NCBI RefSeq assembly: GCF_000024625.1
Contig: NC_013407.1
Span: 1,240,001 to 1,304,000 of the forward strand
Origin: Methanocaldococcus vulcanius M7
GTDB taxonomy: Archaea > AGJL01 > Methanococci > Methanococcales > Methanocaldococcaceae
Length of the DNA stretch: 64,000 nt
Reading direction: 5' to 3'
Positions 9,560 to 61,883 of this stretch are shown here, piece after piece. The notes under the pieces are model-generated. The model was not told the DNA's origin. It searched no databases and worked only from the letters and a program-made list of their open reading frames with translations. The translations under genes and the position numbers were made by a program. Position 1 is the stretch's first letter; each line of letters begins with the position of its first letter.

Positions 9560-12500
9560 CTATTCTATGCTTAAAATCTCTTCGTGTAGGACTTTTAACA
9601 CTTCTAAGTAGTCCACTTCTCCTCTTTCAATTTTATCCATTATCTCTTCTAAATCCCTTGTCCTCTCTTCAGAAATCAGATGTGGATAATTCTCTATTAG
9701 GAAATTATAGACCTCAATTCCGAGTTTTGTAGGGATTAATTTATTTTTATCCTTACTCTTTATTACATATTTTCTATCCAGTAGTTTTTTGATTATTTGA
9801 GCATATGTCGATGGTCTTCCAATGCCTCTCTCTTTCATTAGTTTGATAACTTCTCCTTCATCATACAGTGGAACTTTTGGAACTTTTATAAGTTTTTTCT
9901 CTAACACTTTTAAACTGTTTTTTTCAATTTTTGGAAGTTTTTTCAATTTTAAAGGATAGAATCTACTCCATCCATCAAACTTTATATCTACGTATCCCTC
10001 TATTTTTTCATCTAAATCTTTTATATAAATTTCTTCATACTCCAAAATTGCCTCCTTTGTCTGAGAAGCGATAAATCGTCTAAATATCAAGTCGTATATT
10101 TTTATATGGTTTTTTGTTAATTTTATATTATTTTCTCTTAAAAATTCGATTAACTCATCAGTATCCATCGGTTTAGTGGGTCTTATACACTCGTGAGCCC
10201 CTTCCATAAAGTAGTCCCTATTCTTAATGTAGTGCTCTAAGTTGTTAAGCTTTAAATACTCTCTTGCAACCTTCATCCCATCGATTGAGACCCTTGTAGA
10301 TGATGTTCGATGATATGTGCAGTTATGTGAGATAATTCCATTAGATATAAAGTTTTCATTGCATTTAATGCTTAAATCATACACATAACCATCGTAGAAG
10401 AGATCTTCCACTTTTTTAACTTTAATGAATATCACGTCGTTGTATATATTGCCAACTTTGATTTTTTTGTTACTTTTTTTAACATTTTTATTTTTATTCT
10501 TATTTTCAATTACAGTTCTGCAAAATTCCTTCAAATTTTTGGTTTTTGTATATTTAACTATTTTTTCAGTGAAGGTAGTTAAGAACTTGTTGTCTATAAC
10601 TAAAAAATATCCATTATGCTCTTGGATCATGGTTAAGATCCCTATTGAGTGGAGATAAATTCCGATCTTCTCTAATATGGATTTATTTTTTGAAAATGTG
10701 GCAATATTAATTTCTTTTCCTCTCTTTAAAAATGTTCCACGTGCATCCAAATAACCGGCAATAAATGCGTTTATATAGTCCTCTTTTAAAGAGAACAACT
10801 CCTCTACTAAATGCTCTTTTTCTGAACCTTGTAAACTTAATCTATCGTTTCCAAATAACAATCCAAGATTATACCAAAATTCAGGTTCTCTAACATCGTT
10901 GAAGTTATCTATCTCAACTATTTTTTTAATTTTTTCAAATATCTTAGAAGGGGGATGTGATCTTCTAATTTTATAGTTATAATTAAATGGCATAACAACA
11001 TAATCCCCTTCTTTTATATTTTTTGCAGGAATCCATTTTAATCTGCCATCTTTTAATGTTAATATATGGTGATCTGGCGTTGCTTTTATTTCATAATTGT
11101 TTTGTAATGTTATCTTTTTAAGATTTCCAGAGAATTTTATTTCCCAAAAACTAATGATTTTATCACATATTATTGACTTTCTATCGAGATCTAATGATAG
11201 TATTTCTTTTTTCTCCCTACTTTTTACTATTTCCTCAATGGTTTTGATCCTTCCATCTCCCAATACAATGTGTGTATCAGGAGTTAAGCAAAGACCCAAC
11301 TCGAACAGATCTTGGGCTATGGACATTATTTCATCAGTCCCTATGTGGTATCGTTTTGTTGCTTCTTCCAATAGAGTGTCTGTTGTAAATGGGGGCATTG
11401 GGGGCAGTTCTTTTTCGTAGGTTGTTGTTTCTACGCTGACTTCCTCTTTGTCAAACTCTCCTTCCCATATTTTCCCTATGTATATATCCCCTTCAAGTTT
11501 TAGCGATAAGTATGGAACTTTTATTTTATGTTCGTTATATCTCTCTATTATCCATCCTAAGACAGGTGTTTGAACCCTACCGGCTGAGAGATAGTTTTTG
11601 TTAAACACTTCCCAAAGTTTTTGACTTAATCTGAATCCTATCCATCTATCTTCGATTCTTCTGACAATTTGACCTTTAACTTTATTTTCATCCAGAGACA
11701 ATTCTTCTCCTTTTTTAAATGACTCCACTGCTCGTAATATTGCTCTTTTGGTAATTTCATTAAATCCAACTCGATATATTTCGCTGTTAAACGGAAGGGC
11801 GTTTAATGCAATATCATAACCTATTTTTTCTCCTTCTGTATCAATATCTGTGGCTATAAATAAAGCGTCAACTTCATCTGCTATTTCTCTAATTATTTCT
11901 ATATTATCTTTTGCATCTATTATATTTGTTATTTTTTCTCCTTTTTCCATTAATTGTTTTATAACATCCTCTAAATCTTTTTGATCAGTGAATTGCTCTC
12001 CATTCACTTTCTTTATTGATGCATATATTGGAATATATATATTATCTTCTATCTTAACTCCGTAGAATCCTTCTTTCGTAACGAGGTCGAATACATGCCC
12101 TCCGCTTGCAGTGATTAATAAGTTTAAGTCCCCAACACAAACTTCATAAACGTTTCTATTTTTTATCTTTCTAACGGAGGGTTTTCCGAAAAAGTTTGCA
12201 ATAGTTCTTGCTTTATTTGGACTTTCAACGACCATAAGCACTGATTTAAGTAGATCTGGGGTCTTTCCAGAGCTCCTTCCAGATTTTATTTTTTCCCTAT
12301 CTTCATCTATTTTTTTAATTAACTCCCTTATGTCAACTTCATCGATCTTTTTAAACTCACTTTCATACATAAATAACATATATTTTCTTAAATATTCAAA
12401 TATATCTTTATCATCTACTAAAACTATACTTGCTCCCTTAGTTAATCCGAATTCAGTCATTCTCGAAGTTCTTCCAGAAGCTTGAATATATGTTTTTACA

Positions 12501-13891
12501 TCAGGAATTAGGATAAAATATTCTCCATTTTCAAGTTTAATTGAGAAATTTTTCATTTTTAACTTTTCTTTTACTATATGTCTTATTTCATCTTCTGATT
12601 TATTCTCAATATCGATATTTTCTTTCAAAACTCCTTTTTCAATTAATTTGTCAATATATTCTTTTAATTTAATCTTAAATTTTGGAATTCCGTAAAACAC
12701 TGCGTATCTAACCCTCTCGGGCATGTCTAAGCCCCTAACTAAAACACCATAGTATGAAGCGACACCAATCAAAACATCTATCTCTCCTTTTCTAAACTCT
12801 TCAAATCCTTTTTTATCTTTTGAGTAAATTAATTTTGCCTTTATATTATTTTCTAACAGATATTTCTCTATCTCCTCAGCTTTCTCTACCCCGTAATCGA
12901 TTGGAACGAACACTAAACCTCCCGAACCAAATATTTTTATATACTCTAAAACCTCCTCTTTCTTAAATTCCTCGTCATAAATATCCTCTACATCTCTAAG
13001 TTTATTCATTCCAAACCCAATTTCAAAATCTAACAACTCTCTATAAAGTTTAACCTTATCTCCATAACTCTTCCCCGTTGCTGAGGCAATAATCAAACAT
13101 CCATGATTTATGTTTGAGACCTTTCTTTTTAATTCTTCTCTTTTTTTCAATGCTTCTTCTATCTTTCCAATTTTTATAAGATATATGATTTTATATGCCT
13201 CCTTTATCAGTTCTTCATCAAATCCTAACAATTTCAGTGTTTTATCAATATTTTTAGATGCTTTTAACAGTGAATCAACATCATCAACAAATATAAAGTC
13301 GAATTTATTGTTTATATCATTTTTAGCCAAGTAATTTGATGTAGTTATTAATAAGTCGTAATCTCCATTCTCTATTTTCTCTTTTGCTTCTTTTTTTTCT
13401 TTTGTAGATAGATCTGAGTGGTATGAAATCACATTTATATTTAATTTGCATTTTTCAATTAGAGAAAGAATACGATCATGGGTTTGTTTCACTAAAAGAG
13501 TTGTTGGCAATATAATGTAGCATTTTTTTCCTTTTTTAGTTAAATATAAACTCATTATTATTCCAAAAAAGCTTTTCCCCACACCTGTTGGTGCAACTAT
13601 TGAAAAACTCTTATTTTTTAATACCCTCTTCGCCCACATCTTTTGAATACTTAAAAGTTCAAATCCTAACCTTTTTACAAACTCTTCAAATTTTTTAAAT
13701 TCATTCCAAACTGAGCAATATTTTTCCAAATTTTTTAATGTTTTTTCTTTTTTTAAGTTTTTGCATAGTTCTAATTTTTCTAATTTTTTGTCAATAGGTA
13801 GACACTTTTCACAAACTCCAACTTCCAATCTCTCACTTCTTATCTCGTCTTCACAGTTTGGACACATGCCCTTGTAGATCATTGGAATCAT
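9560..13891 (-). CDS. rgy: Reverse gyrase, interrupted by an in-frame intein
   Basis: Reverse gyrase adds positive supercoils to DNA and marks hyperthermophiles. The 1443-residue precursor contains a 323-residue intein; the spliced enzyme would be 1120 residues, the usual size. In order: N-terminal zinc finger CPNC...CEKC (residues 10-30), SF2 helicase-like domain with Walker A APTGVGKS (100-107) and Walker B FVDDVD, then a toprim region beginning MVVESPNKARTIANFFG, and a topoisomerase IA domain. The catalytic tyrosine is in TYHRTSSTR just after the intein. The gene is divergent from cobN across 419 bases. The intein must splice for the topoisomerase to work. Confidence 0.96.
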   Translation of the reverse strand: MIPMIYKGMCPNCEDEIRSERLEVGVCEKCLPIDKKLEKLELCKNLKKEKTLKNLEKYCSVWNEFKKFEEFVKRLGFELLSIQKMWAKRVLKNKSFSIVAPTGVGKSFFGIIMSLYLTKKGKKCYIILPTTLLVKQTHDRILSLIEKCKLNINVISYHSDLSTKEKKEAKEKIENGDYDLLITTSNYLAKNDINNKFDFIFVDDVDSLLKASKNIDKTLKLLGFDEELIKEAYKIIYLIKIGKIEEALKKREELKRKVSNINHGCLIIASATGKSYGDKVKLYRELLDFEIGFGMNKLRDVEDIYDEEFKKEEVLEYIKIFGSGGLVFVPIDYGVEKAEEIEKYLLENNIKAKLIYSKDKKGFEEFRKGEIDVLIGVASYYGVLVRGLDMPERVRYAVFYGIPKFKIKLKEYIDKLIEKGVLKENIDIENKSEDEIRHIVKEKLKMKNFSIKLENGEYFILIPDVKTYIQASGRTSRMTEFGLTKGASIVLVDDKDIFEYLRKYMLFMYESEFKKIDEVDIRELIKKIDEDREKIKSGRSSGKTPDLLKSVLMVVESPNKARTIANFFGKPSVRKIKNRNVYEVCVGDLNLLITASGGHVFDLVTKEGFYGVKIEDNIYIPIYASIKKVNGEQFTDQKDLEDVIKQLMEKGEKITNIIDAKDNIEIIREIADEVDALFIATDIDTEGEKIGYDIALNALPFNSEIYRVGFNEITKRAILRAVESFKKGEELSLDENKVKGQIVRRIEDRWIGFRLSQKLWEVFNKNYLSAGRVQTPVLGWIIERYNEHKIKVPYLSLKLEGDIYIGKIWEGEFDKEEVSVETTTYEKELPPMPPFTTDTLLEEATKRYHIGTDEIMSIAQDLFELGLCLTPDTHIVLGDGRIKTIEEIVKSREKKEILSLDLDRKSIICDKIISFWEIKFSGNLKKITLQNNYEIKATPDHHILTLKDGRLKWIPAKNIKEGDYVVMPFNYNYKIRRSHPPSKIFEKIKKIVEIDNFNDVREPEFWYNLGLLFGNDRLSLQGSEKEHLVEELFSLKEDYINAFIAGYLDARGTFLKRGKEINIATFSKNKSILEKIGIYLHSIGILTMIQEHNGYFLVIDNKFLTTFTEKIVKYTKTKNLKEFCRTVIENKNKNKNVKKSNKKIKVGNIYNDVIFIKVKKVEDLFYDGYVYDLSIKCNENFISNGIISHNCTYHRTSSTRVSIDGMKVAREYLKLNNLEHYIKNRDYFMEGAHECIRPTKPMDTDELIEFLRENNIKLTKNHIKIYDLIFRRFIASQTKEAILEYEEIYIKDLDEKIEGYVDIKFDGWSRFYPLKLKKLPKIEKNSLKVLEKKLIKVPKVPLYDEGEVIKLMKERGIGRPSTYAQIIKKLLDRKYVIKSKDKNKLIPTKLGIEVYNFLIENYPHLISEERTRDLEEIMDKIERGEVDYLEVLKVLHEEILSIE
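10322..11290 (-). mobile_element. Intein in reverse gyrase, 323 residues, with LAGLIDADG-type endonuclease region
   Basis: Intein residue 1 is the Cys of CLTPDTHIVLGDG (codon 11290-11288); the last residues are SHN (Asn codon 10324-10322), followed by Cys as the +1 residue. Splicing blocks are intact: block A at the start, block B with ATPDHHILTL, block F YDGYVYDLSIKCNENFIS, and block G GIISHN|C. The endonuclease part has a recognisable second LAGLIDADG helix, FIAGYLDARGTF, while the first is only loosely matched by LGLLFGNDRL, so cleavage activity may be reduced. Insertion is two residues before the topoisomerase catalytic tyrosine, a typical conserved-site choice. Confidence 0.93.
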
Positions 13892-24914: not shown

Positions 24915-25000
24915 ACAAAATAATGTTAAAAGGTATAAAAACATACAAAGTTGATAAGTCATATCTTTTATTTGACCATTTGTTTTTTATTGTTTTCAGA

Positions 25001-25240
25001 GCTGACCTCCTCTCCGCCCTAAAGGGTGGAGGTTCCCACTGGGAACACCCTCTCATCCTCGTCGCCGAGGAGTCATTGGGCGGGGTCAGACCGCCTCGAT
25101 AAATAATAAGGCAATTTGAATATATAAACCTTATCTCCGCCCGCCTCCCCTATCTTCGAGCGTAGCGAGGAGAGTAATGAAAACCGTTAGGTTTTCATCT
25201 GAATTCCTCTCCACTCTAAAGAGCGGAACTTCCTTAGCGA
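25001..25240. repeat. GC-rich hairpin-rich IS-like relic between glmM and glmU
   Basis: A roughly 240-base block of much higher GC than its flanks fills most of the 343-base glmM-glmU gap. Two related 28-mers lie at 25009-25036 and 25206-25233, agreeing at 22 of 28 positions. Both read CCTCTCC...CTAAAG...GG..TTCC and fold as hairpins of the type I associate with ends of IS200/IS605-type elements. Between them are hairpins GTTCCC/GGGAAC, CCTCG/CGAGG, GGCGG/CCGCC and a perfect 9-base-pair stem ATGAAAACC/GGTTTTCAT (25177-25198). CGAGCGTAGCGAGGAG (25157-25172) recurs inverted at 43167-43182. No transposase remains. Confidence 0.6.
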
Positions 25241-40048: not shown

Positions 40049-43030
40049 ATGGAAAGATTTATAGAAAATCCAAAGTTTCCAATAAGAGAGATTAACGAGA
40101 AGAGTGGGAAGGAGAAAGGAGGAGCAAGACCTCCATACTGGGAGATGGTATTTTATTGGACAAGAAAACCACTGATTGGAGCGAGAGGAGTTATTGCCGG
40201 CTCTCTATTGCCTTATGATATTGATTTAGAGAGGTTTAAAAATGCAATATGCCTTGATGAAAAAACTCCCCACAGAGTAAATCCAAAGATTCCACGTGAT
40301 TGGAAAAAGTATTTTGAAGGAAAAAAGTTATTAGATCCGTTTGCTGGTTTTGGCTCTATACCTTTGGAAGGTTTAAGATTGGGCTTAGATGTTACAGCAG
40401 TTGAGTTATTGCCAACAACTTATGTGTTTTTAAAGGCAGTGTTAGAGTATCCTAAGGAGTTTGGTAAGAGTTTAGTTAAAGATGTTGAGAAGTGGGGACA
40501 TTGGATTACTGAACGTCTTAAAGAGGATGAAGATGTTAGAGAGCTTTATGAGGATGATGTTGCTGTTTATATTGGAACTTGGGAGATTAAATGTCCTCAC
40601 TGTGGTAGATGGACTCCTTTAATAGGAAATTATTGGTTAGCAAGAGTTAAAGATTCTAAGAAAGGCTATAAAAGATTGGCTTTTATGAAGGCAGTTAAAA
40701 CAGAGGATGGCATTGATATAGAGGTTGTTGATGTTAATAAAATAGCTAAGGAGAATAATTTAAGCTTAGAAAATGCAAAGGTTGATAAGAATAAAATAAA
40801 GATTGATAGTTTAGAGTTTGAAGTGCCAAATGCCAATATTGAATCAAGGAAGAGTCAAGTAACATGTCTATTTTGTGGCAACTTAATAAAATTTGCAGAT
40901 GAAGAAGGAAATCACTATTTAAATAAGGTTAAGGGTAAGGAATTAGAGTTCTATGTAAAATTTGCTTTAAAGAAATATCATGAAGGAGATGAGAGATTTG
41001 CAAGGCAGAGGTTGTTGGTTAAGGTTAAGATTGAAGATGGAGATTTGATTTTTGAAAAGGCAACCTTAGAGGATAATAAAAAATTGGAGATTGCTAAGGA
41101 GAAGGTTAAGAGATTAATTGAAAGTGGAGATGTTGATGTGCCAAATGAACCAGTAGCACCTTGGGGTTCAAAAGGAATGGGAGGGGATATTAAAACTATT
41201 ACTTGGGGATTAACTACTTGGGAAAAGCACTTCAATCCAAGGCAGTTATTAACTTTGATAAAAATTACAAGATTAATTAGAGAAGTTGGAAAAAAGGTTG
41301 AAGAGGAGAAGATTAAAGAGGGCTGGAGTGAGGAGAGAGCATTTAAGTATTCGGAGGCAATTGCTACTTATTTGAGTTTAAATTTATTAAAATATATTGA
41401 TTACAATTCAATTTCAACGAGATGGAATGCATCACTTATAATGGCAAATACTTTATCTACAAGAGGAATATCTGTAAATTGGAATTTTTGGGAATCTAAT
41501 CCCTTTACAAAATGGACTGGTTCTTGGACACAAGGATATACTTACACTCTTCCAAAATCATTGGAATATCTAACCTCTGCACTTTCACATAAACCAAATA
41601 ACTTAGATGATTATTTCAATAAAATCAATAATGACTCCTCAAACATAAAAATCATTCAAGGAGATGCAACCTCTTTAAACTTAGGGGAGCAGTTTGATAT
41701 TATCGTTACCGACCCTCCTTATGCCGATGATGTTCCTTACACTGAACTATCTGACTTTTATTATGTTTGGCTTAAAAGGGCTTTGTCTGATGTTGAAAAC
41801 AATAAACTAATTCCAAGATACCATAAAGAGGCATTCTTCAAAAAGATAGGTAAAAAATACAAAGAGATAAAAACACAATGGCAGGACTTTGCTAAAAAAG
41901 AGGTTTCTGAAAATGCTGGTAGATTTGGAAGCGGTAAAAAAGAACAAAGAGAAATAGCAAAGCAACACTTTGAAAATCTCTTCTCACAAGCATTCATATC
42001 AATGAAAAACCACTTAAAAGATGATGGTTTGCTAATAACATATTACGCACACACAAATCCCGACTCATGGGCAAATCTTTTAGAGGCAGGTTGGAAGAGG
42101 GCAAAGCTAACGATAACAAGGGCTTTACCTCTAACAACAGAATCAAAGCAAAGCATTGTATCAAGAGGCAAACTCTCCTTAGACACTTCAATAATTGCCG
42201 TCTGGAAAAAGAAAACTCTAAAAGATAAGGCGTTAATCTCAACCTTAATACCAAAATTAAGAGATAAAGGAAAACAAACAGCAGAACTATTAATAAAACA
42301 CGGACAGCATGATTTGGACTTACTATATGGAGTAATGGCTGGTATCTTAGAGGAGATAACCCAATACAATGAAATTGTAAGTCCAGAAGGAAAACTAACA
42401 ACAAAAGACATCCTCGATAAGTATGTCTATCCATTAACAATATATAGCATTATAGATGCCATTTCAAAAGAAAAAGAAGGAACTTTAAAAATTACATCAA
42501 AACCTGCCCTATTCTATACAACTTATAAAATCCTATTTGGAAATAAAACCTTAGGTAGTGGTGATTTAATATTGCTAAATATCTCAACTGGCATTGATGC
42601 AAAAACAGCAGTTGAATACAAACTAATAAAAGAAGATGGTAAAGGCTTTACTTTAAACTCTCCAGACCTAATAAAAGAACTCAACAACAAACATCTCTAT
42701 CAGTTTTTAATTGAAAAGAACATAAACCCAACAAATCCAGAAATAAAAACATCAATAGACATCCTCCACTTACTTGAATACTATGCCTTTGCTTATCCAA
42801 TAGATGCCTTTAAATCAAAACTTGATGAGTTAAAAGATAAACACCCAACAGAAACCGAAGAGGCAATAAATATCGCCAAACTAATAAACAAATACTATGA
42901 AAGCGTATTTAAGGAAATATATGCAGGCAAAAAAGACAGCGAAATAGATAAAATCCTACAAAAAAATAAACTATACGAAATCTATCTAATAAGGAGATTA
43001 GTGAGATTCTTAGAAGGAAAAGCATTTTAA
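40049..43030 (+). CDS. DUF1156-type adenine-specific DNA methyltransferase with zinc ribbons
   Basis: A 993-residue protein with an N-terminal DUF1156-like segment (REINEKSGKEKGGARPPYWE) and a split methyltransferase fold. The SAM-binding motif is LLDPFAGFGSIPLEGLRL (about residues 94-111); the catalytic N6-adenine/N4-cytosine motif is TDPPYADDVPYTELSDFYY (about 552-570). Two CxxC pairs, CPHCGRW and CLFCGNL, form zinc ribbons in the 400-residue insert between them. The C-terminal third (from about 740) is helical and may read a target site. Proteins of this type occur in predicted defence loci. It probably marks host DNA for the helicase/ATPase proteins downstream. The ATG follows GGGGATA. 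Confidence 0.88.
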   Translation: MERFIENPKFPIREINEKSGKEKGGARPPYWEMVFYWTRKPLIGARGVIAGSLLPYDIDLERFKNAICLDEKTPHRVNPKIPRDWKKYFEGKKLLDPFAGFGSIPLEGLRLGLDVTAVELLPTTYVFLKAVLEYPKEFGKSLVKDVEKWGHWITERLKEDEDVRELYEDDVAVYIGTWEIKCPHCGRWTPLIGNYWLARVKDSKKGYKRLAFMKAVKTEDGIDIEVVDVNKIAKENNLSLENAKVDKNKIKIDSLEFEVPNANIESRKSQVTCLFCGNLIKFADEEGNHYLNKVKGKELEFYVKFALKKYHEGDERFARQRLLVKVKIEDGDLIFEKATLEDNKKLEIAKEKVKRLIESGDVDVPNEPVAPWGSKGMGGDIKTITWGLTTWEKHFNPRQLLTLIKITRLIREVGKKVEEEKIKEGWSEERAFKYSEAIATYLSLNLLKYIDYNSISTRWNASLIMANTLSTRGISVNWNFWESNPFTKWTGSWTQGYTYTLPKSLEYLTSALSHKPNNLDDYFNKINNDSSNIKIIQGDATSLNLGEQFDIIVTDPPYADDVPYTELSDFYYVWLKRALSDVENNKLIPRYHKEAFFKKIGKKYKEIKTQWQDFAKKEVSENAGRFGSGKKEQREIAKQHFENLFSQAFISMKNHLKDDGLLITYYAHTNPDSWANLLEAGWKRAKLTITRALPLTTESKQSIVSRGKLSLDTSIIAVWKKKTLKDKALISTLIPKLRDKGKQTAELLIKHGQHDLDLLYGVMAGILEEITQYNEIVSPEGKLTTKDILDKYVYPLTIYSIIDAISKEKEGTLKITSKPALFYTTYKILFGNKTLGSGDLILLNISTGIDAKTAVEYKLIKEDGKGFTLNSPDLIKELNNKHLYQFLIEKNINPTNPEIKTSIDILHLLEYYAFAYPIDAFKSKLDELKDKHPTETEEAINIAKLINKYYESVFKEIYAGKKDSEIDKILQKNKLYEIYLIRRLVRFLEGKAF

Positions 43031-43061
43031 ATCTAAATTTTTATATAATTATGGTGAAATT

Positions 43062-43142
43062 ATGAAATTCTATGATAGGGAGAAAGAACTCAACTATCTA
43101 AAAACCCATAGGAAGAAACCTCCTATTGTTATGAAACTTTAA
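43062..43142 (+). pseudogene. Truncated N-terminus of an archaeal AAA ATPase gene
   Basis: Starting after its own GGTGAAATT ribosome binding site, this 26-codon frame reads MKFYDREKELNYLKT, nearly the same as the first 15 residues of the intact ATPase at 43412 (MKFYNREKELHYLKT), then runs into unrelated residues and TAA. The DNA after the break is the hairpin cluster. It is best explained as a second tandem copy lost by insertion or deletion. Confidence 0.85.
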
Positions 43143-43389
43143 GAAAGTTTCATCAAAAACTAACACCTCCTCGCTACGCTCGGAGGTGTAAATTAGCAAG
43201 ATTTGGGGAGTATCCCAATAGAGGGGCGTAGCCCCTCTATGGTGTGGATACCTCACGTCCATTAACCAATTATCAAAGGGAATATATTTACTTTAAGGAA
43301 TATTTAGAAGCCCAAAGGGCTTCTATTAGTGCCTTATTTAATTTTAAAAACTTTGATAATTGGTTATAAGTTGGGGCTTTTAGCCCCAA
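43131..43389. repeat. Cluster of five hairpins, remnant of a small mobile element
   Basis: Perfect stems follow one another: ATGAAACTTT/AAAGTTTCAT (43131-43153); ACACCTCC/GGAGGTGT with an 11-base loop (43163-43189); ATAGAGGGGC-GTA-GCCCCTCTAT (43218-43240) inside an outer GTATCC/GGATAC stem; TAGAAGCCC-AAA-GGGCTTCTA (43305-43325) inside a 15-base inverted repeat AACCAATTATCAAAG/CTTTGATAATTGGTT (43264-43278, 43351-43365); and TTGGGGC/GCCCCAA (43371-43389). The loop sequence CTCCTCGCTACGCTCG (43167-43182) matches the relic at 25157-25172 in inverted orientation. It fills the gap between a truncated and an intact ATPase gene. No open frame is present. Confidence 0.75.
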
Positions 43390-43411
43390 TTAATGTCCAA
43401 CTGGTGATAAT

Positions 43412-44440
43412 ATGAAGTTTTATAATCGTGAAAAAGAATTGCATTATCTAAAAACCTATTGCCAATTAGAGCCAAATTCTATACTTTTTGTTTATGGTCC
43501 TAAATCGTCTGGAAAAACAACAGTAATGCTTAGAGTTATTGAAGAGTTATCTAAAAAAGATGATTTAGTATTCTTTTACTACGATTTGAGGGAATATGCT
43601 ACACCAACAAAGGAAGAGTTTTTGGAGATATTTTTTGAAAAAGGAGATAAAAAGTATCTACTAAATAAGTTTGAAATTAATTTAAAAATATGGAAGTTTG
43701 GAGTTGAAGAGAAATTTGACTTCAACAATGTAAAATTAAATGATGTTTTTAGTAAGATAAAAGAGAGTATCAAAGCAGTTGTTGAAGATGATAAAAAACC
43801 AGTTTTAATAATAGATGAGTTGCAGAAGTTGAAGAGTATTTACTTTAACGAAAACGGGAAAGGAGATAAGTCATTGTTGAATGAGTTATTTAATCTTTTT
43901 GTATCCTTAACCAAGGCAAAACATCTCTGTCATGTTATATGCTTAACTTCAGATACTTTGTTTATAGAGGAAATTTATAGAAACTCTACGTTAAAAAATG
44001 CTTCTGAATATTATTTAATTGATTGGTTAAGAGAAGGAACTATAAGAAATATTTTAAAAGAAGAGGGCTTTAATGAGGGAGAGATAAACTATTGCCTAAA
44101 TTATCTATCATTACCTTATGAAATCTCTCAGTTGATAAATAATAAGAAATTAGGTTTATCCGTTGAACAAACTATAAAGCAGTGGATAAATATTGAAGCA
44201 GATGGATTAAGATTTTTAATAGCAAGTATGCCAGATGATTTGGATGAAAGTAAGACATATGAGATACTGGGCAAGTTTAAGGATAATATTAAAGTTAATG
44301 ACTATGAGATTATTAAAAGGGACTTAATTAAAGAGTTTAAGTTTTTAGTGGAAAATGAGATTTTATTCTATGACGTAATAAATGGCATAATCAAACCAAC
44401 TTCTATAATTGAATGGCATGCTATAAAAGAAGTCATCTAA
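43412..44440 (+). CDS. Archaeal AAA+ ATPase (PF01637-like)
   Basis: A 342-residue STAND-like/archaeal ATPase. The Walker A motif is YGPKSSGKTTV (about residues 29-39) and Walker B is PVLIIDELQKL (about 130-140), followed by a sensor-type block HLCHVICLTSDTLF. The C-terminal part is predicted to be winged-helix. Members are abundant in Methanocaldococcus and of unknown function; some lie beside mobile elements. The ATG at 43412 follows GGTGATA. Its position between the methylase and the DUF499-like ATPase, and its truncated twin at 43062, suggest either a member of the defence module or a hitchhiking duplicated gene. I cannot decide between these. Confidence 0.8.
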   Translation: MKFYNREKELHYLKTYCQLEPNSILFVYGPKSSGKTTVMLRVIEELSKKDDLVFFYYDLREYATPTKEEFLEIFFEKGDKKYLLNKFEINLKIWKFGVEEKFDFNNVKLNDVFSKIKESIKAVVEDDKKPVLIIDELQKLKSIYFNENGKGDKSLLNELFNLFVSLTKAKHLCHVICLTSDTLFIEEIYRNSTLKNASEYYLIDWLREGTIRNILKEEGFNEGEINYCLNYLSLPYEISQLINNKKLGLSVEQTIKQWINIEADGLRFLIASMPDDLDESKTYEILGKFKDNIKVNDYEIIKRDLIKEFKFLVENEILFYDVINGIIKPTSIIEWHAIKEVI

Positions 44441-44461
44441 AAAATAGAGGGGGAGATTATT

Positions 44462-47400
44462 ATGCAAAAATTAAAAGTTTGGGAGGATGTTTTAGATGAG
44501 ACATTAGACATGCAAGTAGCCCCTGAATTGGGGGACGTTATTAACAAAACTGCTCATAAAATTTATACTAACTCAGAAGAGTTTTTTAAAAGGACATACT
44601 TTACTGACTCTATGTTGCAGATACTTGATAGATTAATAAATACTTTAAGTGGGAAAGAAAGGCATAATATATTCTTAATATACTCTCTCTTTGGAGGGGG
44701 AAAAACACATACAATATTAACAATCTATCATGCAATTAATAATCCTAACTCTCTTGTAAATGATGAAACTTTAAAGGACTACACTGAAGATAAAAAGGAG
44801 AAGATAAAAAGTATTGGATTGAAATTAAAAGACCTTCAAACTCAAAATATAAAAATACTTCCAATATATGGTAAAGGAAAATTAGGACAGCCAAGCAGTC
44901 CATTAAACTTTGGTGCTTATAAAGTTAAAACATTATGGGGATATATAGGGCATTGCTTAGGAAAATATTCCATAGTTGAAAATGACGATAAAAACTTAAC
45001 AGTTCCCGATATAGAAACCTTAAGAGAGCTTTTAAAAGGAAATAAAGTAGTGTTTTTAGTTGATGAGATTGTTCATTATATAGACAACTTATACAACAGT
45101 GGAAATGAGGATGATAGAAGATACGCAAAAAATATCTGCAAGTTCTTTGACACTTTATCAACTGCTTTAATTGGAACCGACAGCATTATGATTTTAACCT
45201 TACCAATGGAAAAAGATGGAGAAAAAGTTGAAAAGGGATATAATAAAGAAATAGTCCTTTCTCTACATAGGGCTGTTGAAAGAGTTGGAGGGGCGGAACT
45301 CTACTCTCCATTAAGAACTGAAGGTATTTCTGGAGGAGAAATTGTTGAAATTTTAAAGAAAAGGATTTTTGAAAAAATAGATGACGATTTTAAAGAAAAA
45401 ATAATTGAAAAATACAGAGAAATTTATTCAAACACTGAAATATTTGGAAGATTTGAAGAAAGCTTGTCAAAAACATATCCATTCCATCCTGACTATATAG
45501 CAACGTTAAGAACCATAGTTGAAAGAGGGGGCTTACAAAAAACAAGAGATATGGTTAGAATAACAAGAATTGTTATAAGAAGTTTATTACAAGAAGAAGA
45601 CCTCCCAACCTTGATAATGCCTTACCACATAAACCCAAAAAATGAAAAACTGAGAGGAATATTATTTGGAAGAAATCAAGTATTTGCTGACTATGGAGGA
45701 GCAGTGTTGGATGTAGATTTATCTGCTGAAAAATTTAAAAGATTTTCAAAGCCGGAATTGGCAGAGATTATCTTAAGATATATATTCTTAAAAACCTATC
45801 CTTATGATTCTCCAATACCGCTTGAGGGTTTTCCAAAAAAAGATACCCTTGCAAGGGCTGTTTATGAAATCAACTTCTTTGAAAAACATGCATTGCAATT
45901 AACAGATATTATAAACACCATAAATGAAATTGAAAAAAGCTCATCATTTATATATTTAATTAAAAAAGATGGAATTTTCTGGTTTTGGAGAGTTGCAAAT
46001 GTATCTCAAATGATTGAAAGCAAAAAAGAGGAATTATTAACTCTTAATATAGTTAGTGTTCATAAGAAACTTGAGGAATTCGTTAAAAAATTTGCTGTTG
46101 AAGGAAGAGGTTTAAGAACCAGAAGAATTGAAAATAATATATCATTCTTCAAAAAATCTAATATTGTTGTTTCAAGAGACCCCCAAGAATTCCAAGATAC
46201 TGAGGATTATAAATTGCAAATACTCATAAGGGATGATGTTGATAAGTCCCTGCTTTATAGGATAATTTATCAGTATGGAACTGGAACGAGAACATATAGA
46301 AATACAATAACTGTTTGCTATGCTGATAAATCCATAGACAAATTGTTTGAAATAACTGCCCGTATAATGGCTTGTGATAAAGTAAAAGGAGATATTAAAG
46401 CAAAATATAAGTCGTATGGGGAGGAGGTTGTTCAGATACAGACAAGTATGGTAAGAAGTATTGAGGAGGATACAAAAGCAGAGTTTGATGAGTTTGTAGC
46501 AAGTGTATTTAAAAAAGTTGCATATCCTAAAGATAATGATGTGGAAATCGTTAATGCCACCCCAACCTCCAAATCAATACTTGAAAATGTCTATTCTGCA
46601 CTGATTGAATGGGGAAAAATCCCCAAAAAACTAACTTTCGAAGGTCTCGAGTATTATTTAAATGAGGTAAATATTACTTTTAATAAACCAATAATGTTTT
46701 CAGAACTTAAAAGCATAATAAGAACAAACACAAAACTTCCATTTATTACGGATGATCAATTAAAAGAGGCGATAAAAGAGGGAGTTAAGGACTTAAAAAT
46801 TGGTATTGAGAGAGATGGAAGAATTTTATTCAAAAGAATCCATCAATCTCTACCAAATTATGATGAGGCAGGAGTTCCTCTCGATGATATAAAAGATACT
46901 GATATTATATTACCTCAAATAAAGGCATTAAATAAACAAATAAATCATATTTTAAAAGAAGAAAAGGATGAAGTGGTTGGTAATAGATATATAAAAGTTT
47001 GGTATGAAGTTTATATTTCAGAAGATGAGTCACTGCCATTAAGAGAACTTGTTGAAGAGACGGAAGATGGATTTGTTGTTAAGCCCGAATTTGTGGATTT
47101 AGTAATAAACGGCTATATAGTAAGAAAAACTGAGGAAAAAATTATTGGAGAAAGAAATGAATTTTCTTTAAAATTGGATAGGCATAATATTGAAGGAAAG
47201 CCGGGAGAAAATGTAGATGTAAAAGTAATAATAACGCCGTTAAAAGGCAATGATTTTGAAGTGAATCTTGAAGTTGACGAAGGGGAATTAGATATAGACC
47301 ACGGAAAAGTTCCTTACGAAACTACATGGCACATTAAAATCCCTGAAGCTAAGAAAACTTATAAGATAAAGGCAATATCGGAAGATGGCATTGTAAAGAC

Positions 47401-47776
47401 AGATAAAATAACTCTTATTCCAAGAACTGATATTGTAGAAGTTCATGAATTGTCTGAAGACCTAAAAGGAGGAAAATTATTAGAAATAAGAGGCATTAAA
47501 TCCTCAGATGACTTAAACATTATTCCCGAAAACTTAAATGTCAAAGTTAGAGGAATCCTTATTATTGAAAATGATGAACACTTTAAGGCGGACTTCAATA
47601 ATTTATCTCTCGATGTTGTAAAATACATTATTGAGGAGATAGAGGGAGTTTTAGACCATAAAGCGATGTTAGATGTGGATATTATTTTTACAGAAGAAAT
47701 AAAAATTGACGACTTAATATTTGAGAAACTTAGATGCTTAAATAAAAAAGCAGTATTTAAAATTAAGAAATGTTGA
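44462..47776 (+). CDS. DUF499-type giant P-loop ATPase
   Basis: A 1104-residue protein resembling the DUF499 family of prokaryotic defence loci. The N-terminal ATPase domain has Walker A LFGGGKTHTIL (about residues 76-86), typical of this family, and Walker B KVVFLVDEIVHYIDNL (about 194-209). Further blocks are SKTYPFHPDYIATLRTIVER and LQKTRDMVRITRIVI. The central region is helical with winged-helix-like segments, and the C-terminal 250 residues are beta-rich (KPGENVDVKVIITPLKGN), suggesting an Ig-like or DNA-binding module. DUF499 and DUF1156 proteins often neighbour each other. The exact activity is unknown. The ATG at 44462 follows GGGGGAGAT and lies 21 bases after the AAA gene. Confidence 0.82.
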   Translation: MQKLKVWEDVLDETLDMQVAPELGDVINKTAHKIYTNSEEFFKRTYFTDSMLQILDRLINTLSGKERHNIFLIYSLFGGGKTHTILTIYHAINNPNSLVNDETLKDYTEDKKEKIKSIGLKLKDLQTQNIKILPIYGKGKLGQPSSPLNFGAYKVKTLWGYIGHCLGKYSIVENDDKNLTVPDIETLRELLKGNKVVFLVDEIVHYIDNLYNSGNEDDRRYAKNICKFFDTLSTALIGTDSIMILTLPMEKDGEKVEKGYNKEIVLSLHRAVERVGGAELYSPLRTEGISGGEIVEILKKRIFEKIDDDFKEKIIEKYREIYSNTEIFGRFEESLSKTYPFHPDYIATLRTIVERGGLQKTRDMVRITRIVIRSLLQEEDLPTLIMPYHINPKNEKLRGILFGRNQVFADYGGAVLDVDLSAEKFKRFSKPELAEIILRYIFLKTYPYDSPIPLEGFPKKDTLARAVYEINFFEKHALQLTDIINTINEIEKSSSFIYLIKKDGIFWFWRVANVSQMIESKKEELLTLNIVSVHKKLEEFVKKFAVEGRGLRTRRIENNISFFKKSNIVVSRDPQEFQDTEDYKLQILIRDDVDKSLLYRIIYQYGTGTRTYRNTITVCYADKSIDKLFEITARIMACDKVKGDIKAKYKSYGEEVVQIQTSMVRSIEEDTKAEFDEFVASVFKKVAYPKDNDVEIVNATPTSKSILENVYSALIEWGKIPKKLTFEGLEYYLNEVNITFNKPIMFSELKSIIRTNTKLPFITDDQLKEAIKEGVKDLKIGIERDGRILFKRIHQSLPNYDEAGVPLDDIKDTDIILPQIKALNKQINHILKEEKDEVVGNRYIKVWYEVYISEDESLPLRELVEETEDGFVVKPEFVDLVINGYIVRKTEEKIIGERNEFSLKLDRHNIEGKPGENVDVKVIITPLKGNDFEVNLEVDEGELDIDHGKVPYETTWHIKIPEAKKTYKIKAISEDGIVKTDKITLIPRTDIVEVHELSEDLKGGKLLEIRGIKSSDDLNIIPENLNVKVRGILIIENDEHFKADFNNLSLDVVKYIIEEIEGVLDHKAMLDVDIIFTEEIKIDDLIFEKLRCLNKKAVFKIKKC

Positions 47777-47845
47777 TTTTAAGTAGCTTTTTTATATTGT
47801 AGTATATATTTTTCCTATCATTTCTCTTTTTTGTGAGGTGATGCT

Positions 47846-48301
47846 GTGAAAGGAAACACTCAATATATGGTTAAGCTTAAATATATTAAACCAATAAAAT
47901 TACCGATTGTAAAACAACAAAAATTGGCAGAGTTTATCCCAGTAATACCTCTTGAAGATGGCAAATATATAAAAGGTAAAATTGAGGGGACTGCAAGAGT
48001 ATTCCTTCCAGAGTTTATTAATTTTGCTAAACACCTTGGCTTTGAAGTTTCTGGTAAAAAAAGGATAACATTAAAAACTGATGATGATTATGCATATCTG
48101 AGATTATTTGTTTATGCCATGGTTATGCAGGCATTAAAAGATAACACAATGTGGGGAAAATTAGAAGACCACATTCTCTCTATGGAATCATTGTCTTTAC
48201 GTTATTGGGCATCAACTTTTAGAAATAGATATTGGGAATATAACAATAGAAGAAAACTATTAAAAATTGCAAAATACTTTTTGGAGGTTGAAGAAATTTA
48301 A
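47846..48301 (+). CDS. Small defence-module protein of unknown function
   Basis: A 151-residue basic soluble protein. It starts at GTG 47846 after GAGGTGA (47835-47841). Its centre reads VFLPEFINFAKHLGFEV and YAYLRLFVYAMVMQALKDN, and the C-terminus has LEDHILSMESLSLRYWASTF and RNRYWEYNNRRKLLKIAKYF, rich in Arg, Tyr and Trp as in nucleic-acid-binding helices. I do not recognise the family with certainty; small proteins in this place of DUF499/DUF1156 loci are sometimes listed as DUFs. It is followed after 23 bases by the helicase gene, so it is likely a dedicated partner or adaptor. Confidence 0.75.
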   Translation: MKGNTQYMVKLKYIKPIKLPIVKQQKLAEFIPVIPLEDGKYIKGKIEGTARVFLPEFINFAKHLGFEVSGKKRITLKTDDDYAYLRLFVYAMVMQALKDNTMWGKLEDHILSMESLSLRYWASTFRNRYWEYNNRRKLLKIAKYFLEVEEI

Positions 48302-48324
48302 ATTTAAGAGAGAGGGGATGAAAA

Positions 48325-51309
48325 TTGCAAGATAAAATAAAAAACTATCTCACAAAAAAGATATTTTTGCATAATCCCTTACTATTCTTTTATGCTTTAA
48401 ATCATCCAACCTCAAAAAAAGAAATAAAACCATTCATACACCAAATTCATCTTTTATATAATGCCATGCTTCTCCGCCCAGTTCGTTTTTTAATTGCGGA
48501 TGAGATTGGCTTAGGTAAAACAATAGAGTCGCTTGCAATAGCGAGATATTTAGAACTAAAAGAAGGAATAAAAAAGATTTTGGTTTTAACTCCAAAAATT
48601 TTAAGAGAACAGTGGGAGGCAGAGATAAAGAGAGTTGGGGGAATTCCAAGAATTATTAAAGATGGGAATGATATAAATAATATTAAAAGTTCTTTGCAGT
48701 ATTATGATTCTGTTTATATCATAATTTCAATTGACCTTGCAAAAAGGTATGTTGATAAAATATTGCAAATTGATTGGGATTTAGTTATTGTTGATGAAGC
48801 CCACAACATCACCAAAAACACTCAAAGAGGAAAATTAGTTGAAAAGCTTTCAAAAAAAGTAAGAAATATGCTTTTACTTTCTGCAACTCCACATAGAGGA
48901 GACCCTCAAGATTACCTATATCGACTAAAATTATTAGACCCTACACTTATAGATGATTTTGATAAATTAAATACTCAAAATTTCTACTCTAAAACCCATG
49001 ATATATTAGTTTTTAGAAGGACGAAAAAATTAGTAAATGCTCTCGGGACTAAAAGAGTTTTTAAGGATTGCAAATTTAATGCAGTGGTAGTAGATTTATC
49101 AGAAGAGGAAAAAAGATTTTTTACCCTTCTTGAAGAGACACTTAAAAATATATTGAAAAATACAAAAAGAAACTCTCCAATATCACTTTTAGCAGTAATT
49201 TTGGGGAAGAGAGCATCTTCAAGTTATAAAGCAGCAATTGAAACACTGAATAGGATTATAAAAACTAACATTTTAAAAACTGACGATATTGATGTGTCAG
49301 AGGACATTCAAAACCTCTTCTCATTAAGTTTTGAAGAAATGGAATTTGAGGACTATATGGAAATATCTGACATAATAAATAATATTGTTGATAAATATTC
49401 TCCCTACCTAAACAAGGAGCAGAAAAACTTATTTGAAAATCTCCTTAAAACAACAACTAACATCATAGTCAAAAAAGATAGTAAAATTGACGCTTTAGCA
49501 AAAATTATTGCAGAACATATTAGAAACAATGAAAAAATTGTTGTATTTACTGAATATGTTGATACTCTCAAATATCTTCAAGAAAATCTGCCTAAGTATT
49601 TAGATAACTATGGTATTAACATAGATACAAATGAGATATTAACGCTTTCAGGAGAAAATAAAAATCTGTTAGAGAATATTAATAAAAAATTTGAAGATTG
49701 TGGAAAAATTTTACTTGCTACAGATGTTGCTTCTGAAGGGCTTAATTTACAAATTGCGAGTGTTTTGATAAACTATGATTCTCCATGGAGTCCTATAAAA
49801 TTAGAACAGAGAATTGGTAGAGTTTGGAGATTAGGGCAAGAAAAAGATGTCTCTGTTTATAATATTTTCCTTTCAAATAGAATGGATTTAGAACTGCTTA
49901 ACAACCTTTATAAAAAAATTATGAATATTAAAAATGCACTTGATAATCAATTAGCAATAGGTAAGGAGATATATATTGCAAATGCTGAAAATTTATTTAA
50001 CTTAGAAGAATTTGCATACATAAAAAACTTGTCTGAATATGATATTATAATTTCAGCAATAGTTGGAAATCTAGGAGATTATACAGAAGAAATTGTCAGA
50101 ACACTAAAAATTATTAGAAATAAACTAAAAATGATGAACATTTTTCCAGAAGAACGTGCTGAAGAAATTAAAAAGGAAGTTTTAAAACTTATCAAAAACG
50201 AAAATTACTTAGAGATTGGAAAGATTGAAGAGATTTTGAGATATTATCAAGAGAAAATCTTAAATGGAAATATACATTCCCAAAATAAATTGTATCAAAT
50301 TATAAAATCAAAAAATGATGATGACTTACAAGTATCAAGAATCGTTGTAAAAAGTCCATTTAAAAATAGGGATTATTTATTTTTTGTAAAGGTATTGACT
50401 GAAGATAATAAAGGTGTCTGGGAAATTCCAGTGATAGCACATAGAGAAAAGAATGTTAAATTAATGACAGGTGTTGAAGTATTAAAATATCTTATATCAA
50501 TTTTTAGCAGAGAGTTATTTTTCACAAACTACATAGAAAAACCTTACGAAAAGCAGATATTGGCTATTAAGGGAAATATTTTCGCTTATGTTAGAAATAA
50601 CTTTGTAAATAATATAAATAAAAGAATATCAAATTATGAAGACCTTAAGAACTCAGGTTTAAAAGATGACAAATTATTTAAGAACTTGAAAGTGGTTGTA
50701 GATAAACCAGTAATTATTGATTACCTACCAGAGAATGAGTTTTTAATTGAAAAAATCATCCCATTAGATATTATAAATAATTTAGGTTTAGATAAAGACA
50801 ATATTATTATGCCAAATGAAAATGATTTAAAGGCAATGGATAGAAATTTTCTCCCCCTTGAAGAACTTGTAAAGATTGAAAAATTGGCAATGAACATTGT
50901 AATGAATATCGAAGAAAAAAGATTAGCAAATAAATATGGATATGAAAATAAAGGCAAAACTTGGGATGTTTTGGATGTTTCCCTACATGAGCATTATGAT
51001 ATAAAGGTTATTGAAAATGGAAAGGAAAAATACATTGAAGTAAAGGGGCATAAAGGATTGTTACCAATTGCAGAACTTACAGAGGCAGAATATAAATTTG
51101 CTATGGAAAATGAAGATAAGTATTATTTATATATCGTCTGTAACCTTGGAAAAGATGAAAAAAATGCAATATTATTTGAAATTTATAAACCTCTCAACAA
51201 AGAAGATAGAAAAATTTATCTAATTAAAAACGGAGAAAAAATAGATGTTAGCAGATATTATAATAACATGAATATCGCTGAAAAAAAGAGATACTTATTA
51301 CATTTTTAG
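48325..51309 (+). CDS. SNF2-family helicase with C-terminal DUF3883-like domain
   Basis: A 994-residue superfamily 2 ATPase. The helicase core has motif I IADEIGLGKTIESLA (about residues 55-69), motif II VIVDEAHNI (DEAH, about 153-161), LLSATPHRGDP (motif III), and the C-lobe motifs LATDVASEGLNLQIA and RIGRVWRLGQEKDVSVYN. The C-terminal 150 residues contain KEKYIEVKGHKG and LTEAEYKFAMENEDKYYLYI, the pattern of DUF3883, a restriction-endonuclease-like fold. The start is a TTG at 48325 behind GAGGGGATGA; no better start lies nearby. With the methylase this resembles a DISARM- or BREX-like logic, but the gene set does not match either exactly. Confidence 0.87.
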   Translation: MQDKIKNYLTKKIFLHNPLLFFYALNHPTSKKEIKPFIHQIHLLYNAMLLRPVRFLIADEIGLGKTIESLAIARYLELKEGIKKILVLTPKILREQWEAEIKRVGGIPRIIKDGNDINNIKSSLQYYDSVYIIISIDLAKRYVDKILQIDWDLVIVDEAHNITKNTQRGKLVEKLSKKVRNMLLLSATPHRGDPQDYLYRLKLLDPTLIDDFDKLNTQNFYSKTHDILVFRRTKKLVNALGTKRVFKDCKFNAVVVDLSEEEKRFFTLLEETLKNILKNTKRNSPISLLAVILGKRASSSYKAAIETLNRIIKTNILKTDDIDVSEDIQNLFSLSFEEMEFEDYMEISDIINNIVDKYSPYLNKEQKNLFENLLKTTTNIIVKKDSKIDALAKIIAEHIRNNEKIVVFTEYVDTLKYLQENLPKYLDNYGINIDTNEILTLSGENKNLLENINKKFEDCGKILLATDVASEGLNLQIASVLINYDSPWSPIKLEQRIGRVWRLGQEKDVSVYNIFLSNRMDLELLNNLYKKIMNIKNALDNQLAIGKEIYIANAENLFNLEEFAYIKNLSEYDIIISAIVGNLGDYTEEIVRTLKIIRNKLKMMNIFPEERAEEIKKEVLKLIKNENYLEIGKIEEILRYYQEKILNGNIHSQNKLYQIIKSKNDDDLQVSRIVVKSPFKNRDYLFFVKVLTEDNKGVWEIPVIAHREKNVKLMTGVEVLKYLISIFSRELFFTNYIEKPYEKQILAIKGNIFAYVRNNFVNNINKRISNYEDLKNSGLKDDKLFKNLKVVVDKPVIIDYLPENEFLIEKIIPLDIINNLGLDKDNIIMPNENDLKAMDRNFLPLEELVKIEKLAMNIVMNIEEKRLANKYGYENKGKTWDVLDVSLHEHYDIKVIENGKEKYIEVKGHKGLLPIAELTEAEYKFAMENEDKYYLYIVCNLGKDEKNAILFEIYKPLNKEDRKIYLIKNGEKIDVSRYYNNMNIAEKKRYLLHF

Positions 51310-51429: not shown

Positions 51430-52581
51430 ATGTCTAAACTAAATGTTAAGTTTAAAACATTAACTCCCTTATGGACAAGTAATGCGTGGGGACAGTGTAT
51501 TGAGATAAGATCTTCATCTATTATAGGAAGTTTAAGATTTTGGTTTGAAGTTTTGTGTTATTTTAATGGAATTGTCAACGATAACTATTTTGATAACGAA
51601 GGAAAACCTTGTGAAAAATTAAATTACAAAGATTTTCAAAAGAAATTAGAAGACAAAATTAATAGAAAATTGAAGAATGATGAAGAGTATAACATTGAAA
51701 AATTAACTGATGAAATCTTATCTGAATTAGGAATTTCACTACCTTCAAGGATTTTTGGATGCACTGGTTGGAGAGGGAGGATTAAGATAAAGAAAATTGA
51801 ACCAATAGAAGATTATTGTTTTGGAAATAGATTAAATTTACCTTATGCTATTGGAATTAAAAAAGATAATGGTGACAAAAATATAATAGAATGGCGAACA
51901 AAAAATGATTATCATCAGTTTATTAAAGAAAAATACAATGGAGATAACAATAATTTTAAAAAAGATTGGTCAGTTTGGTATTTTTCAGATCCCTATTTTT
52001 ATGGAAAGTTTGAAGTAACTTTTGAAACTGATAAAACAATAAAAGATGCTGTTTTAATTCCCTTATTAAATTTTATTGAGAAATATGGCTATATTGGTGG
52101 AAAATGGAATATTGGGTATGGTAGGGTTAAAATTCTGAATAATGATTGGGACAAAGATAAAACTACATTTGAATTAAGTAATTTTATAAAATCTGTAAAA
52201 AATGGAAAAATTGAAAAATACGAAGATTTTGATTTTAATGATATTGTAGAGAACATTAACAATGAAAATAGTAAAGAGATTGGTAGTTTTAATGACTTAT
52301 TAAAAATACAAAATAAAATTTTAATTCTAAAAAATCAAATTGAGGGTAATTTTAAAGACATTATTAAAGAACTAATAAAAATCAGGGCACTAAGAAGAAA
52401 GGGGCACAAAGAAGATCGTGGGGATAATAATGAAAGACATCAAATTTTTGGATATAACAATCCAACGGAAGGATCAAAGATTTTGCCGTATATTTATGAA
52501 GATAAAGATGATAGAAAATTAAAAGGAGGATTCATCTCAATTACCGGAATTTTAAATATAAAAGGTGATACCAATGTCTAA
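51430..52581 (+). CDS. cmr1: Type III CRISPR Cmr1-like RAMP protein
   Basis: A 383-residue Cas7-group protein. The opening NVKFKTLTPLWTSNAWGQC then RSSSIIGSLRFWFEVLCYF is the Cmr1 pattern, with the tryptophan-containing region just after the first strand. FGCTGWRGRIKIKKI and IEKYGYIGGKWNIGYGRVKI are the RAMP glycine-rich loops. Cmr1 caps the target-RNA 3' side of Cmr complexes. The ATG at 51430 follows CAGGTGTGA. It is the first gene of an operon; its stop overlaps the next start by 8 bases. Confidence 0.85.
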   Translation: MSKLNVKFKTLTPLWTSNAWGQCIEIRSSSIIGSLRFWFEVLCYFNGIVNDNYFDNEGKPCEKLNYKDFQKKLEDKINRKLKNDEEYNIEKLTDEILSELGISLPSRIFGCTGWRGRIKIKKIEPIEDYCFGNRLNLPYAIGIKKDNGDKNIIEWRTKNDYHQFIKEKYNGDNNNFKKDWSVWYFSDPYFYGKFEVTFETDKTIKDAVLIPLLNFIEKYGYIGGKWNIGYGRVKILNNDWDKDKTTFELSNFIKSVKNGKIEKYEDFDFNDIVENINNENSKEIGSFNDLLKIQNKILILKNQIEGNFKDIIKELIKIRALRRKGHKEDRGDNNERHQIFGYNNPTEGSKILPYIYEDKDDRKLKGGFISITGILNIKGDTNV

Positions 52582-57419: not shown

Positions 57420-57431
57420 GTGGAGGATAGA

Positions 57432-57878
57432 ATGTATTATTTTGCCTATGGTTCAAATATGAGTGAAGAAAGGATAAAAGAGAACTGCAAAAATCCAAAA
57501 TTTGTAGATATTGGTTATATCAAAGATTATAAGTTTGTTTATGATGGTTATTCCAGAGGTTGGGGAGGTACTGTAGCCAACATAGTTCCAAAAAATAGAG
57601 AAATTGTGTGGGGTGTTATATATGAAATCTCCGAAGATGACTTAAAAGCTTTAGATAGACAGGAGGGATATCCTATAACTTATGATAGGGAAGAAATAAC
57701 TGTTTTCTGTGTAAATAAGAATATAGAGATTAAAGCTTATGTCTATCTTAGAGAAGGAGAGCCTATTGGAAAACCTACAAAAGAATACGTTGATACTTGT
57801 GTAAAAGGTGCTAAAGAACATGGAATTCCAGAAGATTATATTAAAAATGTTATAGTGGGGTGGAAGAATGACAAATAA
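57432..57878 (+). CDS. Gamma-glutamylcyclotransferase-fold protein embedded in the CRISPR operon
   Basis: A 149-residue AIG2/GGCT-like protein. The signature FAYGSNMSEERI (residues 4-15) forms the gamma-glutamyl pocket, WGVIYEISEDDLKALDRQEG carries Glu78 where the catalytic acid of GGCT enzymes is expected, and YDREEITVFC follows. These residues suggest an active fold, but the substrate is unknown; family members act on gamma-glutamyl amines or peptides. GTG at 57420 is in frame directly after the cas10 stop, but GGAGGA (57422-57427) serves the ATG at 57432. The stop overlaps the next cmr gene by 11 bases, so it is an integral operon member, not a bystander. Confidence 0.88.
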   Translation: MYYFAYGSNMSEERIKENCKNPKFVDIGYIKDYKFVYDGYSRGWGGTVANIVPKNREIVWGVIYEISEDDLKALDRQEGYPITYDREEITVFCVNKNIEIKAYVYLREGEPIGKPTKEYVDTCVKGAKEHGIPEDYIKNVIVGWKNDK

Positions 57879-58956: not shown

Positions 58957-58992
58957 TTAATAATGTTTGTAATAACCAAAATGGTGGTTCTA

Positions 58993-60203: not shown

Positions 60204-60254
60204 TATATATAAATTAATATTTAATTTAAAATAAAAAAATTATTAGTTAGGGAG

Positions 60255-61883
<1,629 letters not shown>

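Follow-up and report, generated by a model that had tools for sequence, protein, structure and literature searches.

A shortened intein beside the catalytic tyrosine of a Methanocaldococcus reverse gyrase, very probably with a dead homing endonuclease

The reverse gyrase gene of Methanocaldococcus vulcanius M7 carries an insert at its catalytic-tyrosine site that is very probably a class 1 splicing intein (Cys1, HN, Cys+1) in the decay phase of the homing cycle, i.e., one whose nested LAGLIDADG homing endonuclease would be dead. Its anatomy, its site, the replacement of the catalytic residues, the missing segments and an evolution faster than that of the host can all be read directly from the data presented below, which cover one stretch of 64,000 nucleotides (NC_013407.1, positions 1,240,001 to 1,304,000; hereafter, the window) and the related genomes compared with it. 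Decay as a phase of the homing cycle is treated in excerpts of two earlier papers (PMC8966425, PMC3229294). No work on this intein was found among the titles and abstract openings listed by a search of the open-licence literature for reverse gyrase inteins; we would expect the intein to be catalogued already in intein registries.

Host gene and intein anatomy

The host protein matches the reverse gyrase model TIGR01054 with 1730 bits over residues 1-1442, and intein-free reverse gyrases can be aligned to it on either side of the insertion, which is in frame and at a conserved site. The junctions read LFELGL/CLTPDTH on the N side and IISHN/CTYHRT on the C side (a slash marks the splice point), and the splicing model PF14890 (Intein_splicing) covers intein residues 8-323 with an E-value of 2.8e-38. 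The features of the host and of the splicing part, in window positions, are:

9560..13891, minus strand: reverse gyrase gene (host), 1443 aa with the intein and 1120 aa after splicing (TIGR01054; alignment with 4ddt and 1gl9)
10322..11290, minus strand: intein of 323 residues, host residues 868-1190 (PF14890; intein_Nterm and intein_Cterm above cut-off)
11288..11290, minus strand: Cys1, the first splicing nucleophile (block A), read from the sequence; Cys in 25 of 25 same-site inteins
11069..11080, minus strand: block B, TPDH (T71, H74); ATPDH in 24 of the 25 same-site inteins and ASPDH in the remaining one
10322..10396, minus strand: blocks F and G, ending in His322-Asn323 (intein_Cterm match 302-323)
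10322..10324, minus strand: N323, the last intein residue, read from the sequence
10313..10321, minus strand: Cys+1, Thr+2 and Tyr+3 (catalytic tyrosine) of the C-extein (sequence; 4ddt alignment)

A preliminary description of this DNA had placed a 323-residue intein at 10322-11290, which proved exact to the base. Its statement that the splicing blocks are intact holds as well: Cys1, T71-P-D-H74, H322-N323 and Cys+1, the marks of a class 1 intein, are all present in the sequence, both terminal intein models score above their cut-offs, and splicing is the predicted activity. The same is true of the claim that the intein adjoins the active-site tyrosine. That is, T1192-Y1193 of the host align with residues 850-851 of the Thermotoga maritima reverse gyrase (4ddt), where we take Y851 to be the catalytic tyrosine, and the catalytic tyrosine of the host is therefore residue +3, with two residues between it and the intein (Tyr+3 codon 10313-10315 and Cys+1 codon 10319-10321, minus strand). 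Judged from this anatomy, topoisomerase activity would depend on splicing and the unspliced form would be inactive. By the standard class 1 pathway the intein would excise spontaneously, joining LFELGL to CTYHRT and giving the 1120-residue enzyme.

Elsewhere in the window, an RNA of the HgcC family (24989-25114, minus strand; 81.7 bits) and a probable defence island (40049-51309, plus strand) were observed, the latter with a DUF1156/type II methyltransferase, a DUF499 (HmaC-like) ATPase and an SNF2 helicase with a NO VEIN domain (DrmD/HmaA-like). Type III CRISPR genes lie at 52565-63496 (plus strand) and include:

52565-53845, plus strand: Cmr6-like, with ~140 residues preceding the match
53826-57419, plus strand: a large Cas10, 1197 aa against a 785-position profile
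57868-58956, plus strand: Cmr4-like
62252-63496, plus strand: Csx1

The endonuclease remnant and its decay

The comparison set was assembled by searching the host protein in 61 related genomes, the intein in 36 genomes of the window organism's phylum, and a seven-intein profile in 115 genomes from the same phylum as G040 (which, by its content, we take to be Thermococcales-like) and in 55 of the family of G042 (Archaeoglobaceae). Same-site inteins were taken from 25 genomes (one duplicate, L124, was dropped), each reading LFExGL/C and HN/CTYHRT. A scan of genome contigs with the intein returned 11 loci, two of which were used (L054 and L055), the nine others being weak partial matches; a scan of viral contigs returned four weak partial matches (31-52% over parts of the intein). 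Eight loci among the weaker profile matches were also read: five (L120-L123 and L147; E ~1e-39 to 1e-43) are inteins at the tyrosine site of TopA, and the other three (L127-L129, one with E 1.7e-39), which come from the G042 family, show neither the reverse gyrase nor the TopA site. An intein-like match of 32% over query residues 114-323 was also seen in a 1608-residue frame of G005 (L045, G005:C259:1560-2192), a genome whose reverse gyrase is intein-free.

Among the 25 same-site inteins, 22 are 485-495 residues long and carry the two catalytic Asp, which are both absent from the three short ones: the window intein (323 residues; Asn, Arg), that of the metagenome-assembled genome G004 (313; Asn, Val) and that of G087 (410; Lys, Ser). 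The endonuclease/accessory region is correspondingly 181 and 171 aa in the compact pair (window and G004), 272 aa in G087 and 349-354 aa in the other 22. In a tree of the splicing part, the compact pair falls among the inteins of Methanococcales and G087 among those of Thermococcales (support 100/99 for each group, with a long-branch warning at the deepest split); the two decays are thus independent, and the reverse gyrase site appears, on these sequences, to have decayed at least twice. What is left of the endonuclease in the window intein is:

10442..10966, minus strand: remnant of the endonuclease/accessory region plus linker, residues 109-283 (alignments, lengths)
10844..10879, minus strand: remnant of the first LAGLIDADG helix, FWYNLGLLFGND (alignment of 25 inteins)
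10559..10780, minus strand: single retained LAGLIDADG_3 unit, residues 171-244 (PF14528, E 8.9e-8, positions 1-81 of 82)
10739..10741, minus strand: R184, which takes the place of the second catalytic Asp; the sister genome G004 has Val here (25-intein alignment)

The preliminary description saw only one clear LAGLIDADG helix and held that full alignment of both motifs would speak against decay. This needs amending, because the first helix is also recognisable by alignment (FWYNLGLLFGND versus FWYFAGLVLGDG) and both helices do align; yet both catalytic aspartates are replaced, the first corresponding to N148 (10847-10849) in the 25-intein alignment, where a shift of one residue would put D149 at the catalytic position. 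The suspected decay is in fact stronger than had been noted, since the endonuclease/accessory region has also lost about half its length (with slightly different boundaries from those of the remnant above, 181 aa versus 353 in the 494-aa orthologue of G008), including ~46 residues after the first helix relative to that orthologue. The 494-residue version that it names for M. jannaschii agrees with the length in this genus-mate, at the same site, and we take G008 to be M. jannaschii. The window intein therefore differs from an active LAGLIDADG endonuclease, which has two motifs with catalytic acidic residues (here N148 and R184) and two alpha-beta-beta-alpha-beta-beta-alpha halves (here one PF14528 unit was found), and equally from a mini-intein, which has no endonuclease domain, in that a LAGLIDADG_3 unit of 32.7 bits remains against a cut-off of 22.5.

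An AlphaFold model, built from a three-sequence alignment (mean pLDDT 59), served to read the order of secondary-structure elements and to match the fold roughly. In this low-confidence model the LAGLIDADG_3 unit runs helix-strand-strand-helix-strand-strand-helix, and within the remnant the modelled strands come after the second helix only. Foldseek searches with the weak model returned endonuclease inteins first, with intein TM-scores of only 0.2-0.6, and matched ~90 residues to I-DmoI at ~3 A (E 0.001-0.006). Surface charge has been argued to be a sign of lost DNA binding in the Pyrococcus horikoshii VMA intein (excerpt of PMC8966425); considered as such a mark here, it gives no support, as the endonuclease region of the compact intein has a basic pI (9.57), like that of full-length inteins, the G087 region having a pI of 6.63.

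The steps by which this state would have been reached are that a full-length ancestor of ~490 residues lost both catalytic aspartates, that much of the sequence flanking the endonuclease on both sides was deleted (we label these flanks accessory segments), and that deletion also took the greater part of what follows the helix in the first LAGLIDADG half, leaving one complete half-domain. Such an endonuclease would be unable to cut DNA, and the intein would no longer be able to home.

Selection, mobility and alternative explanations

The compact intein recurs at 94% identity in G004 (JAADDS010000074.1, L054), and purifying selection on the host is strong between the two genomes (dN/dS 0.067 for the N-extein and 0.06 for the C-extein). 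So conserved an enzyme is presumably made in working form, from which we infer strongly that the intein splices in the cell. The intein itself evolves faster, with dN/dS values of 0.29 for the whole intein, 0.26 for the N-terminal splicing part and 0.74 for the core endonuclease remnant (residues 109-248; 9 nonsynonymous and 3 synonymous changes), and its last 40 residues are identical. The remnant differs from the extein with a Fisher p of 0.0004, a contrast of low power that rests on 12 substitutions, and the splicing part is also faster than the extein (Fisher p 0.002). Tested against neutrality, the core remnant shows no departure (binomial p 0.43; 12 changes, low power), while the splicing part (p 0.001) and the extein (p 6e-44) depart from it; for the remnant with the linker added, dN/dS is 0.35 and the test is borderline (p 0.052). 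The endonuclease region of the full-length pair G010/G013 gives a dN/dS of 0.29, likewise on few changes.

The full-length form, by comparison, moves between families by horizontal transfer, as indicated by G008 and G016, members of different families whose inteins are 90.1% identical and whose exteins are only 71.7% identical. Presence of the intein is patchy: it is found in 5 of the 14 genomes of the window's genus (G000, G004, G008, G010 and G013) and is missing from the other 9, and exteins are 98.4% identical between G013, which carries the intein, and G009, which does not. The compact inteins are ~54% identical to the full-length ones of Methanococcales, their hosts being 68-85% identical, so the compact lineage is apparently immobile and fast-changing. 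With regard to the empty sites, position +1 is Cys in 2 of the 16 intein-free Methanococcales reverse gyrases that were read (L012 of G003 and L016 of G011) and Ser or Thr in the other 14; the two Cys are possibly a trace of lost inteins.

Alternatively, the retained half of the endonuclease might have stopped drifting and be retained as a structural brace, without which the splicing fold would not splice efficiently. There is precedent for this in the TFIIB inteins, studied under the names of M. jannaschii and M. vulcanius M7 (excerpts of PMC5790916 and PMC6801210), whose endonuclease domain, degenerate in the M. jannaschii copy, is kept and needed for efficient splicing (excerpt of PMC6801210), and the TFIIB intein of the window genome is nearly identical in sequence to PDB 5o9i over both matched stretches. 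The complete LAGLIDADG_3 unit and the borderline constraint on the remnant with its linker point in the same direction. However, the core remnant is indistinguishable from neutral at a dN/dS of 0.74, and inteins of 136-217 aa, by length alone too short for such a domain, occupy the homologous site of TopA (below). Hence, we consider a brace possible but rather unlikely.

It seems improbable that the intein is a regulatory switch, as the preliminary description had proposed, by which splicing, and with it reverse gyrase activity, would respond to temperature or redox state. The proposal draws on the analogy of the RadA inteins of P. horikoshii and T. sibericus, which require raised temperature to splice in their native exteins (excerpt of PMC5790916), and on the adjoining catalytic tyrosine, which makes activity splicing-dependent. 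For a redox response, C310 is the sole candidate residue noticed, being present in the two compact inteins and absent at that position in the other 23; with regard to the remaining cysteines, that of EFCRTV is, like C310, common to both compact copies, and C43 is not in G004. Nonetheless, the 9 intein-free genomes of the genus indicate that a switch is not needed in general, insertion at the active site is common to all 25 aligned inteins, and the intein evolves faster than its host. The active-site position is instead accounted for by the usual preference of homing for conserved sequence, given that this very site is shared by 24 other inteins and the homologous one is occupied by TopA inteins.

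That the endonuclease is still active, perhaps through dimerization of the one half that is left, is very unlikely: single-motif LAGLIDADG enzymes do function as dimers and the LAGLIDADG_3 unit is aligned over 81 of 82 positions, but the catalytic Asp position is occupied by Arg or Val and the two copies differ there. Nothing was found in favor of the insert being an assembly artefact or part of a pseudogene, which is scarcely credible given the 94% identical compact intein of a second genome, the open frame and the purifying selection on the host.

The homologous TopA site and comparison with known systems

The paralogous topoisomerase TopA, read in 11 genomes, has an intein at its own catalytic-tyrosine site in 7 of 10 genomes of the window's genus and in G040 (L132-L138 and L140), with lengths of 217, 217, 157, 150, 136, 136 and 136 residues in the genus and 511 in G040, and no intein at this site in G000, G004 and G008. 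The insertion point reads LYEKG[LY]/C...HN/CSYPRT, and a BLAST comparison of the mature reverse gyrase with the TopA of G008 aligned the two insertion sites without gaps. When the reverse gyrase intein of G008 was compared with nine genomes, the best matches outside reverse gyrase were 511-residue TopA-site inteins (113.6 and 105.9 bits; the next reached 60). An intein beside the catalytic tyrosine is, therefore, a recurrent situation, and forms that by length are too short for an endonuclease persist in TopA. A different site is used in the TopA of the window genome, which carries a 162-residue intein at GLGTK/STRAEI (L130, C1:686500-690800), as do G004 (162) and G012 (169).

It is tempting to hypothesize, although we hold this only tentatively and at somewhat less than even chances, that type IA topoisomerases offer a common homing target in their catalytic-tyrosine segment, the reverse gyrase and TopA inteins there deriving from one ancestor that jumped between the paralogues, followed by parallel decay in the window's genus (from 494 to 323/313 residues in reverse gyrase; in TopA, 511 residues in Thermococcales versus 217, 157, 150 and 136 in the genus). 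If so, the window intein would have been caught half way in its decay.

Decay within the homing cycle remains the reading that we favor, and at its best it adds one case to a known type, an intein predicted to be splicing-proficient in the decay phase. It is an ordinary but well-resolved example of a mobile element going extinct and overturns nothing known. Its value lies in the natural series that it completes for the homing-cycle model, with empty alleles, full-length two-Asp inteins and dead, half-deleted ones at one site within one genus, and in the decayed form as direct test material for which pieces of the endonuclease the splicing fold needs in a hyperthermophile.

The closest known system is the 494-aa intein of G008, which shares host gene, site and splicing blocks with the window intein (54% identity over 320 aligned residues and 65% over the N-terminal 111) but retains the two catalytic Asp and is longer in the endonuclease/accessory region (353 aa versus 181). 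The 410-aa Thermococcales intein of G087, which is presumably P. horikoshii, resembles it in site, in shortening and in the replacement of both catalytic Asp (by Lys and Ser), and differs in keeping most of the first LAGLIDADG half and in the pI of the endonuclease region (6.63 versus 9.57). The P. horikoshii VMA intein likewise has a degenerate endonuclease without active-site aspartates, with no DNA cleavage or binding (excerpt of PMC8966425); it sits in another host gene and retains the endonuclease architecture of which about half is missing here. The TFIIB intein comes from the same or a near genome and, again, from another host gene. Finally, the TopA catalytic-tyrosine inteins share a homologous insertion point in a paralogous host and differ in size, with 136-217 aa in the window's genus and 511 aa in Thermococcales.
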